DNA of 52,356 bases. Origin: Gammaproteobacteria bacterium (lineage in GTDB: Bacteria > Pseudomonadota > Gammaproteobacteria > GRL18). Positions 34,931-51,668 of the stretch are shown piece after piece. The first letter of the stretch is position 1; each line of letters opens with the position of its first letter. The stretch spans positions 2,706 to 55,061 of the forward strand of contig JADGEK010000006.1 in NCBI GenBank assembly GCA_016744395.1, given 5' to 3'. The notes below the pieces were generated by a model that had not been told where the DNA came from, ran no database searches, and saw only the letters and a list, made by a program, of their open reading frames with translations. Made by a program: the position numbers and the translations under genes.

Positions 34931-36631
34931 TTATTTTTGGTTCCCAGCTTTAGCCCATGAATCTCTTAGGCTGACTGTACGATTAAAAACCAACTTTTCA
35001 CTATTAGAATCCAGATCAGCAGTAAAATAACCCTCTCTTTCAAACTGGAAGGATTCACCCTCTTGAGAATTGGCCAATGATATTTCTGCTCTTGCATCAC
35101 TCATTACTCTTAAAGAATCCGGATTTAAAAAGTCCAGAAAGTGACTGTCTTCATTTTCATGCTTTTTAGCTGCATTATCAGGGTTTTCTTCTGTAAACAG
35201 ACGATCATAGATGCGCACTTCTACTGGAACACTATGCTCAGCCGAAACCCAATGTATCACACCTTTCACCTTGCGCCCTTCTGGCTTTTTGCCTAAGGTA
35301 TCCGCATCGTGGCTGCAAATCAGTTCTATCACTTCACCCTGCTCATCTTTAATCACTTCATTACACTTAATGACATAAGAATTCCTCAAACGGACTTCTT
35401 TATCAGTCGTCAGTCGCTTGTATTTCGGTGGTGGCACTTCTTCAAAATCACTGCGATCAATATAAATTACCTTGCTCATTTTAAAGAGACGTCGCCCCAT
35501 AGACTCATCTTTAGGATGTCTTGGTGCAGAGAGTTCTTCAACATGACCATCAGTCCAGCTCTCAATGGTCACTTTAAGGGGATTAATGACACACATGGCT
35601 CTAGGAGCTGAATGCTCCAGTTCTTCACGGATACAAAACTCCAATGTGCCCATATCCACAACGCCATCGACTTTAGTCACACCAATACGTTCACTAAACT
35701 CGCGAATAGATGACGGTGTATAACCGCGACGTCTTAAACCAGAGATAGTTGGCATTCTGGGATCATCCCAACCCAAGACATGATTTTCATCCACCAGTTG
35801 TTTTAATTTTCGCTTACTGGTGATGGTATAGTTGAGATTTAAGCGGGCAAATTCAATCTGTTGGGGGTGAGTGGGTGTCTCAAGTTGATCCAGCACCCAA
35901 TCGTATAATGGTCGATGATCTTCAAACTCAAGTGTACAAAGCGAATGAGTAATGCCTTCTATGGCATCAGAAATACAATGAGTGTAATCATACATTGGAT
36001 AAATACACCACTCATTACCTGTTTGATGATGTTCGATTTTACGAATCCGATAAAGAATGGGATCACGCATATTTATGTTTGGTGATGCCATATCAATTTT
36101 AGCTCGTAAAACCTTTGCTCCTTCGTCAAAGTCGCCTTGTTTCATACGCTCAAACAAATCCATGTTTTCAGCAACGCTTTGCTCGCGAAATGGGCTGTTC
36201 TTGCCTGGTTCTTTTAATGAGCCACGGTATTCACGAGATTCATCAGGGGATAGCGAACAAACATAAGCCTTACCTGCTTTGATAAGTTCTATCGCGTACT
36301 CATGTAATTGAGCGAAATAATTAGAGGCGTATTTGGGCTCATCAGCCCACTCAAAGCCAAGCCAGGATACATCTTCTTTAATAGAATCAATGTATTCCAC
36401 ATCTTCTTTTTCTGGGTTGGTATCATCAAAGCGTAAATTACAGATCCCTTTATAGTCCTGCGCTAAACCAAAATTCAAACAAATTGATTTTGCATGACCA
36501 ATGTGTAAATAACCATTTGGCTCAGGAGGAAAGCGGGTAACAACTTTACCCTCATTTTTATTATTGCTCAGATCTTCATCAATAATATGACGAATAAAAT
36601 TACTGGCAGGCTTAATCTCAATATCACTCAT
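34931..36631 (-). CDS. glnS: Glutaminyl-tRNA synthetase
   Basis: GlnS charges tRNA-Gln. The 566-residue class I enzyme has [20 protein letters not shown] (HIGH motif) and the second signature around [14 protein letters not shown], which replaces MSKRK in E. coli. It also has [11 protein letters not shown] and the anticodon-binding beta-barrels in the C-terminal half ([20 protein letters not shown]). It is the first gene of a two-gene operon with cysS. The neighbouring rightward cyclophilin and lpxH genes complete a cluster (cysS, glnS, ppiB, lpxH) known from other gammaproteobacteria such as Pseudomonas. Confidence 0.97.
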
Positions 36632-37017
36632 GTTTGCGGCTCATTTTATGTCTTAAATTTGTTCAATCGATGATTTTAATGAATTAATAGACAAAAATAA
36701 ATCATTACTCTTTAATCAAGCCATTAAAACCGTTATATTGTTCAAAATCTTGAGTTCTGCGACTATTTTGCTCAGAAATCATTCTAAATACCTGTTTCTA
36801 CTATTTGCTCATATTAATAGTAATCACTGAGTATCAAAAGGACCTATTGCATATTGAGCGATTTGACGAAGTCCGAGCCCAATATGCAATAAGTCCTTTT
36901 GATACGGATTTTAAGCTAATCCTGTTAAGTAAAGAAAGAGCACAGATGTGGAACAGCTATATTAGATTTAAGATATTTACAAATTTCACCACTTTTCATA
37001 AAAGCAAAGGTTCAAAA
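36632..37017. other. 386-base divergent region between glnS and the cyclophilin genes
   Basis: It holds the promoters of glnS (left) and of the secreted cyclophilin (right). It also holds the 75-nt hairpin element described separately at 36831-36905. An open frame crosses the hairpin from 36805 but has no ribosome binding site and no family match, so I do not call a gene. Confidence 0.65.
36831..36905 (+). repeat. 75-nt palindromic element, copy A (unnamed family)
   Basis: Two 25-nt arms (36831-36855 and 36881-36905) are complementary with one mismatch around a 25-nt apical region. The apical region contains GATTTGACGAAGTCCGAGC at positions 30-48 of the element. A second copy (B) lies at 51567-51641 in reverse orientation with the same total length and the same 19 bases in the same place. 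Element ends are GTAT...ATAC in both. It sits between divergent genes, about 110 bases upstream of the cyclophilin start, so it cannot be a terminator of a neighbouring gene. Function unknown. Confidence 0.85.
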
Positions 37018-37605
37018 ATGACAAGATTCAAACTTCTCGTTCTTAGCATATTTCTAATCACCTTCAGCCTGCTTATTTTTTCGACAGCAAGTTTAGCCTC
37101 TAATACCGTTAAAATTAAAATGGTCACGAATAAAGGTGACATTATATTAGAACTCTATCCAGACGAAGCTCCAGACACTGTGAAAAACTTTGTTAATTAT
37201 GCAAATAACAATTTTTACAACAAAACCATATTTCATCGAGTCATTGATGGTTTTATGATTCAAGGCGGTGGTTATACAAATGCCCAAGACCGAAAAATGA
37301 CCTTAAGTGCTGTCAAAAATGAAGCAGACAATGGCCTAAAAAATGACCGCGGCACAATAGCAATGGCTAGAACTCGGGATCCTCACTCAGCAACGGCTCA
37401 GTTTTTTATCAACCTGAAGAATAATGATCCTTTAAATCACACTCGTAAATCAATCAACGGCTGGGGTTATACTGTTTTTGGTAAAGTCACCAAAGGCATG
37501 GATGTGGTTGATGCAATTGCAAAAGTGAAAACAATTCGAACAGCAGGACAGCAGAACATCCCTGTTGATCCCATATACATTGAAGATGTCGATGTAATCA
37601 AATAA
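37018..37605 (+). CDS. ppiA: Exported cyclophilin-type peptidyl-prolyl isomerase
   Basis: This 195-residue protein has a signal peptide (LLVLSIFLITFSLLIFSTASLA) and a complete cyclophilin domain. The domain has the catalytic Arg region [16 protein letters not shown], then GTIAMARTRDPHSATAQFFI and INGWGYTVFGKVTKGMDVVD. It catalyses cis-trans isomerisation of X-Pro bonds in the periplasm. The ATG used has AAGG eight bases upstream; the frame stays open 71 codons further back but only crosses the hairpin element. The cytoplasmic paralogue follows 97 bases later, so the two form a duplicated pair. Confidence 0.92.
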   Translation: MTRFKLLVLSIFLITFSLLIFSTASLASNTVKIKMVTNKGDIILELYPDEAPDTVKNFVNYANNNFYNKTIFHRVIDGFMIQGGGYTNAQDRKMTLSAVKNEADNGLKNDRGTIAMARTRDPHSATAQFFINLKNNDPLNHTRKSINGWGYTVFGKVTKGMDVVDAIAKVKTIRTAGQQNIPVDPIYIEDVDVIK

Positions 37606-37702: not shown

Positions 37703-38194
37703 ATGATAAAAATGCAAACAAACTTTGGCACAATTTCTATAGAACTTGATACAGAAAAAGCACCTGAAACTTGTGCGAACTTTGAGCAATATGTTAAAGA
37801 TGGTTTTTATGATGGTACTATCTTTCACCGTGTTATTGACGGTTTCATGATTCAAGGTGGCGGTATGGAACCTGGCATGGCCGAAAAAGACACTCGTGCG
37901 AACATCAAAAATGAAGCCAGCAATGGCCTGACCAATGATCGTGGCACTCTGGCTATGGCACGTACACCTGATCCTCATTCTGCGTCATCACAATTCTTTA
38001 TTAATTTGAAAGACAATGCTTTTTTAAACTTCCGTAATGAGTCGCCTGATGGCTGGGGTTACTGTGTTTTTGCAAAAGTCACCGATGGAATGGATGTTGT
38101 CGATGCCATTAAAGCCGTTAAAACAGGCAATTCGGGCCACCACTCTGATGTACCTGTTGAAGATGTCATCATTGAAAAAGTGACTATTGATTAA
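37703..38194 (+). CDS. ppiB: Cytoplasmic cyclophilin peptidyl-prolyl isomerase B
   Basis: This 163-residue protein is a single cyclophilin domain without a signal peptide: [20 protein letters not shown] at the start. It then has [40 protein letters not shown] and [20 protein letters not shown]. It is an E. coli PpiB-type enzyme acting in the cytoplasm. The gene precedes lpxH by 44 bases, the order also seen in E. coli and Pseudomonas. Confidence 0.95.
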
Positions 38195-51410: not shown

Positions 51411-51566
51411 GACTTGTATCCTGTTGAAATAGGTGTGCATAAGCAACCTATAGTTTAAGTTAATTCCTATAGAACGTGAGTATTCTTAGCTGTGTCACCA
51501 ATTCTATATTTCAAAAAATCATTTTGAAATATAGACTCTTAACAGTGAACCAATAAAAGAAAGTCC

Positions 51567-51641
51567 GTATAAGAGCAAGCCCTGCATTATTTTGCTCGGA
51601 CTTCGTCAAATCACAAAATAATACAGGGCTTGCTCTTATAC
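51567..51641 (-). repeat. 75-nt palindromic element, copy B (unnamed family)
   Basis: Two 27-nt arms (51567-51593 and 51615-51641) pair fully on the minus strand with one G.U around a 21-nt loop. The loop holds the same 19 bases as copy A (GATTTGACGAAGTCCGAGC read on the minus strand) at the same positions, 30-48. The ends are GTAT...ATAC. It lies between two leftward genes and is followed, on the minus strand, by a T-rich stretch (CTTTCTTTTATT), so it could end transcription of the gene to its right. Copy A cannot do this, so termination is not the family function. Confidence 0.85.
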
Positions 51642-51668
51642 TCAGTATTCTCTATTTTTAGATGCACA

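Follow-up and report, generated by a model that had tools for sequence, protein, structure and literature searches.

The described systems closest to the family reported here are intergenic MITEs of other bacteria. RUP, an IS630-Spn1-type MITE of Streptococcus pneumoniae, is likewise short and non-coding, occurs in many intergenic copies and has a strong fold; its terminal repeats resemble those of the resident IS630 element and its targets are TA dinucleotides (PMC3049150, PMC2229807). The Correia or NEMIS elements of Neisseria belong to the same MITE size class, are folded in the transcript and have been reported to undergo inversion (PMC10969869, PMC2649163). The ERIC and YPAL elements of enterobacteria are palindromic intergenic MITEs of 127–168 bp, and ERIC elements located at 3′ ends alter mRNA decay (PMC2229807, PMC10969869). 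Among Gammaproteobacteria, Coxiella burnetii carries QMITE2, a MITE of about 190 bp whose degraded copies are REP-like hairpins and for which an sRNA has been reported (PMC10969869). A further parallel is provided by hairpins maintained by template switching, which share arm homogenisation and loop inversion with the present family (PMC8794818, PMC8604942): template switching homogenises arms and inverts spacers (PMC8604942), and makes and maintains RNA hairpins (PMC8794818).

The window, which is the whole stretch of 52,356 nucleotides that we analysed, contains two 75-nt hairpins, copy A (36831–36905, plus strand) and copy B (51567–51641, minus strand). Both were described correctly by the initial annotation, including their identical 19-mers (36860–36878, plus strand, in copy A; 51594–51612, minus strand, in copy B), their GTAT...ATAC ends and the compensated pairs that it listed between them. 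The 29-bp stem comprises 27 Watson-Crick pairs in copy A, and 27 Watson-Crick and two G-T pairs in copy B. The tip of copy A reads as GATTT, a GAC-GAA-GTC mini-hairpin, CGA and GC. RNA folding of the 75-nt segments yielded −39.1 kcal/mol (z −11.1) for copy A and −48.8 kcal/mol (z −12.5) for copy B. The 19-mer occurs twice in the window, even when three mismatches are allowed, and was absent from 100 window shuffles. A covariance model built from 34 copies (R1) detects copy A with 92.6 bits (36825–36911) and copy B with 101.4 bits (51561–51647) and finds no third copy within the window, the next one on the same contig lying beyond it (G000:C59:70958).

Extending the alignment beyond the hairpin revealed outer inverted repeats, CTAAATARCTGTTCC...GGAACAGYTATTTAG, which delimit complete elements of mostly 152 bp and up to about 200 bp with no transposase gene inside. 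The 75-nt hairpin, though confirmed, lies inside a larger element and is not itself the unit of the family. The MITE ends carry CTA in 31/39 cases and TAG in 31/39, and the copies are flanked by two TA dinucleotides. Copy A is a whole element of 182 bp (36784–36965, plus strand; fold of −60.8 kcal/mol, z −7.7) whose ends, CTAAATACCTGTTTC...GGAACAGCTATATTAG, agree with those of the family: the left terminal inverted repeat (36784–36798, plus strand) matches the consensus at 13/15 positions and contains the TA target at 36785–36786, and the right one (36950–36965, plus strand) matches at 12/15 and contains the TA target at 36963–36964. Copy B has lost recognisable outer repeats. The elements fall into length classes near 152, 175 and 198 nt; the two longer classes are consistent with the presence of a single or a double insert of about 24 nt, which occurs in the relative G008. 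There, a palindromic insert, TTTCCCCTCATGGGGCCTACTTTTGG, lies near the terminal repeat of copies such as L032, L052, L085 and L111; some G008 copies have it at a single end, others at both.

Searches with the end sequences identified a complete insertion sequence of 1167 bp in a relative (G005:C20; L180, 946–2112), which encodes a transposase matching DDE_3 (1.3e-24) and the NCBIfam IS630 equivalog (1.3e-58). Up to 26/30 terminal bases are identical between the MITE and this IS630 element; the MITE interior, judging by its sequence, is not derived from the IS. Using the joined flanks of one G005 insertion as a query, we found that the orthologous site in G012 is contiguous and uninterrupted and has a single TA, at this one site. 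Because the ends are shared with an IS630 insertion sequence and the empty site retains a single TA, we identify the hairpins, on sequence grounds, as copies of an IS630-type MITE, which would be mobilised in trans by an IS630 transposase. This bears out one option raised previously, that of a MITE-like mobile palindrome, and names its IS630-family parent with matching ends. The genome of the window harbours an IS630 homologue (G000:C72) of about 90% amino acid identity, with the same ends as the G005 element and internal stops; present mobility therefore relies on another copy or has ceased.

The REP element offered as part of the same option is not supported by these data. A REP or BIME moved by a RAYT, a Y1 HUH transposase, could be entertained as the genus has Y1 transposases and most of its genomes carry a RAYT-like gene, but the unit is about 150 bp (typically 152 bp) with IS630-like terminal repeats and TA targets, as opposed to REP units of 20–40 nt, and Y1 genes are also found in genomes without hairpins (G001, G006, G007, G009). 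Together with the empty site, the IS630 ends largely refute this candidate, which we regard as most improbable. The RAYT-like Y1 gene (277 aa; L162, 1429–2262) lies beside an S4-domain-like gene, seemingly at an equivalent place in most genomes of the genus whether or not they have hairpins, and may be domesticated.

The initial annotation had named a lack of further copies, or of flanks forming hairpins of about 75 nt, as evidence against a family; the 19-mer instead recurs at 26 sites of the genome when up to three mismatches are allowed, and nearly all of these sites cap a hairpin of about 75 nt. Model R1 matches 53 sequences in this genome and 114 in G008, and matches are present in 11/16 genomes of the genus. 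Under stricter filters, R1 matched nothing in 367 further genomes of the class; G007, which belongs to the genus, and one member of the taxonomic family were part of that set and likewise gave no match. In the genomes searched, the element is confined to one genus, with up to about a hundred copies per genome. Five pattern-scan matches outside the genus, in Verrucomicrobia, Planctomycetes, and alpha- and betaproteobacteria, have flanks that form no hairpin and were attributed to chance. The exact 19-mer is absent from the viral contigs searched, and BLAST of copy A against plasmids and phages returned no match. At the gathering score, Rfam detects only a tRNA in the window, and relaxed thresholds added weak sub-threshold chance matches to microRNA models and no family; as far as Rfam is concerned, the earlier statement that no named family combines a conserved loop with free stems therefore holds. 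Several perfectly symmetrical copies at contig ends (L092, L112) were excluded as possible assembly fold-backs; their symmetry reaches or passes the edge of the element, which suggests fold-back artefacts at palindromes.

The copies are intergenic and typically close to the 3′ terminus of an adjacent gene; divergent sites such as that of copy A are rare. Copy A occupies the gap between glnS (minus strand, 34931–36631) and a cyclophilin gene (plus strand, from 37018), both assigned with Pfam. A mechanically called ORF with a TTG start (36805–37605) reads through the MITE, and the ATG at 37018 is more likely to be the start of the cyclophilin gene than the upstream TTG. This gene (37018–37605) forms a tandem pair with a second cyclophilin-like gene (37703–38194).

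Across subfamilies, the tip follows the order GATTT, 3-bp mini-stem, loop, YGA and RC. The mini-stem covaries (GAC/GTC, GGC/GCC, GAT/ATC, TAT/ATA), the loop is GNA or four bases, and GATTT and GA are nearly invariant. The tip is a real motif, a GATTT/YGA internal loop around a covarying 3-bp mini-stem, and G-A pairs of the tandem sheared type could form in this loop, whether as RNA or as DNA. The fixed centre proposed initially stands as a conserved tip and fails as a strictly fixed sequence, since position 39, the middle of the GNA loop, is free and the bases of the inner mini-stem covary from one subfamily to another. An alternative tip fold, GATTT:AAGTC, which is the minimum free energy fold of copy A, was rejected because it does not hold in the GGC/GCC and TAT/ATA subfamilies. 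Among full-length elements retrieved by their ends only, the strict motif is present in 11/14, and near variants occur in two others (L120, detected by R1, and L184, recognised by sequence). Searching by the ends alone also recovered short derivatives without the hairpin (5/19 elements), so that mobility may not need it. Elements of 50–103 bp with good ends and no hairpin (L088, L127, L136, L144, L176, L179) are apparently internal deletion derivatives.

A protein that reads the 19-nt loop as its target, as also put forward at the outset, is possible. At the DNA level, a transposase, recombinase or replication protein would recognise the tip as a single-stranded or cruciform hairpin. In DNA, C-GNA-G triloops are very stable, as are tandem YGA/YGA mismatches, and we looked among the copies for a preferred tip orientation relative to transcription and found none, as would suit such a target. 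IS630 transposases, however, act on double-stranded terminal repeats, some derivatives with good ends lack the hairpin altogether, and a cruciform extruded on both strands predicts no strand-specific excess of G-T mismatches such as that reported below. We judge recognition of DNA to be improbable.

The stem covaries strongly, and this is not an artefact of alignment: the covariation score is 0.62, versus 0.175 for shuffled and at most 0.12 for slid alignments, and both sides changed in 22/32 pairs. At two orthologous loci with flanks 83–94% identical, 5/6 and 3/4 of the changed pairs were altered on both sides, with probabilities under random placement of about 3e-5 and 6e-4. Pairing persists after the terminal repeats decay, as seven copies without ends retain 26.1/29 pairs and 31 intact copies 25.7 (rho −0.08). 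Such covariation is the classical signature of a selected fold; template switching can likewise yield covariation beyond chance (PMC8794818).

Replication template switching that recopies one arm from the other, with no selection at the RNA level, could in principle account for the stem by itself. Four tips are inverted relative to flanking asymmetric sequences (L008, L099, which lies mid-contig, L124 and L271), and L008 combines an inverted tip with an uninverted mismatch next to it (T-C rather than G-A), the outcome predicted for inversion of the spacer only. Double changes comprise 55 transversions and 49 transitions, versus about 1.7 transitions per transversion in the flanks, and the lengths near 152, 175 and 198 nt are consistent with an insert at one or both ends. 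Arm homogenisation, spacer inversion and hairpin upkeep by this route are all documented (PMC8604942, PMC8794818). Inverted tips, transversion-rich double changes and insert-stepped lengths thus support arm-to-arm template switching. Free switching should nevertheless randomise the orientation of the tip, and we count 113 forward tips for about four flipped ones, which argues against free switching alone; palindrome mechanics also leave the invariant GATTT/YGA loop and its covarying mini-stem unexplained, and do not account for the prevalence of G-T over A-C mismatches. As a complete explanation, it is a serious contender that we nonetheless doubt.

Mismatches in the stem carry the other part of the evidence. 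G-T outnumber A-C mismatches by 59:25 distinct events (p 0.0003), an excess that weakens to 27:15 at the stricter 85% dereplication (p 0.09). Where transcription from an upstream gene enters the tip strand, the ratio is 71:17, against 39:22 elsewhere (permutation p 0.009), a count that includes loci retrieved by a G-U-favouring model, whereas the 59:25 count excludes them; a simple comparison of sense with antisense did not reach significance (p 0.14). The excess of about 2:1 suggests selection on the transcript. The initial annotation had set selection on a fold beside palindrome repair, and each is evidenced, the former by the G-T excess and the latter by inverted tips and double changes: covariation probably has a mixed origin, with arm-to-arm template switching and selection acting jointly.

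A structured non-coding RNA, cis-regulatory or sRNA, kept by host selection with MITE spread as an incidental feature, would accommodate the stem covariation, the compensation in the mini-stem and the G-T excess. Two old copies reside within apparent operons, one beside the gene of a Rieske-type nitrite reductase subunit and the other in an apparent type I restriction locus, and the hairpin is kept in the nitrate/nitrite and type I restriction operons across species. This reading is unlikely, given that genomes of a single genus carry anything from 0 to over 100 copies, that neither gene context nor orientation is fixed and that Rfam provides no match at its gathering score. In four species (L037, L039, L078, L084), the same MITE copy precedes a gene that apparently encodes a type I restriction subunit and is adjoined by a DUF6933 gene.

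Our preferred reading, an IS630-type MITE with a selected tip, a stem upheld by switching plus selection, and an RNA role of the transcript, is probable as a whole. An IS630 transposase would move the MITE in trans, by cut-and-paste, into TA targets, preferably CTAG, with most insertions settling near the 3′ ends of genes. The interior would consist of a 29-bp perfect stem under the selected tip, with its GATTT/YGA loop, 3-bp mini-stem and GNA or 4-nt loop. Template switching would transfer point mutations from one arm to the other, and selection would act against mispaired transcripts while tolerating G-U pairs; these two processes would explain why pairing in the stem far outlasts the transposon ends. 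By analogy with the Correia and ERIC elements (PMC10969869), the hairpin would most likely serve as a structured RNA segment, located between cistrons or at the 3′ ends of mRNAs. The least certain steps are that the hairpin, transcribed by read-through, would act there as an RNA stability or processing element, and that the tip would be the contact site of a host factor, which we infer to bind it. The lack of orientation preference, which a dedicated mRNA element might show, and the location of copy A in a divergent gap, the setting least prone to read-through, speak against an RNA role. A more specific version, which we advance tentatively, is that the selected apical RNA motif (a GAUUU/YGA loop with its covarying mini-stem) attracts an RNA-binding protein or a nuclease of the host; each insertion would thereby provide portable, genus-wide post-transcriptional control with stems renewed by template switching.

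If the tip has a binding partner, the family would constitute a mobile regulatory RNA module. Over 300 matches in one genus, together with orthologous loci and inverted tips, make it a natural test bed for how much compensatory evolution, the standard evidence of RNA function, stems from template switching and how much from selection.

The family is new in the collections searched, and an IS630-type MITE with a folded transcript is already known as a kind. RUP differs in its length of 107 bp, its sequence and its host, and a conserved tip on a freely varying stem has not been reported for it (PMC3049150, PMC2229807). In Correia elements, the terminal repeats form an RNase III target (PMC10969869, PMC2649163), whereas the main stem of the present family is internal and variable and its tip conserved. 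ERIC and YPAL are apparently unrelated in sequence, and the accounts in PMC2229807 and PMC10969869 describe no architecture of covarying stem and fixed tip; QMITE2 also has another sequence, and the review that covers it describes no conserved tip with a compensatory stem (PMC10969869). The hairpins maintained by template switching concern general mutation patterns in yeast and in rRNA genes rather than a mobile family (PMC8794818, PMC8604942). Descriptions of MITEs usually centre on the terminal repeats, whereas here the ends decay and the internal hairpin and tip persist in place; what sets this family apart is a fixed, internally covarying tip atop a stem that is renewed in place.
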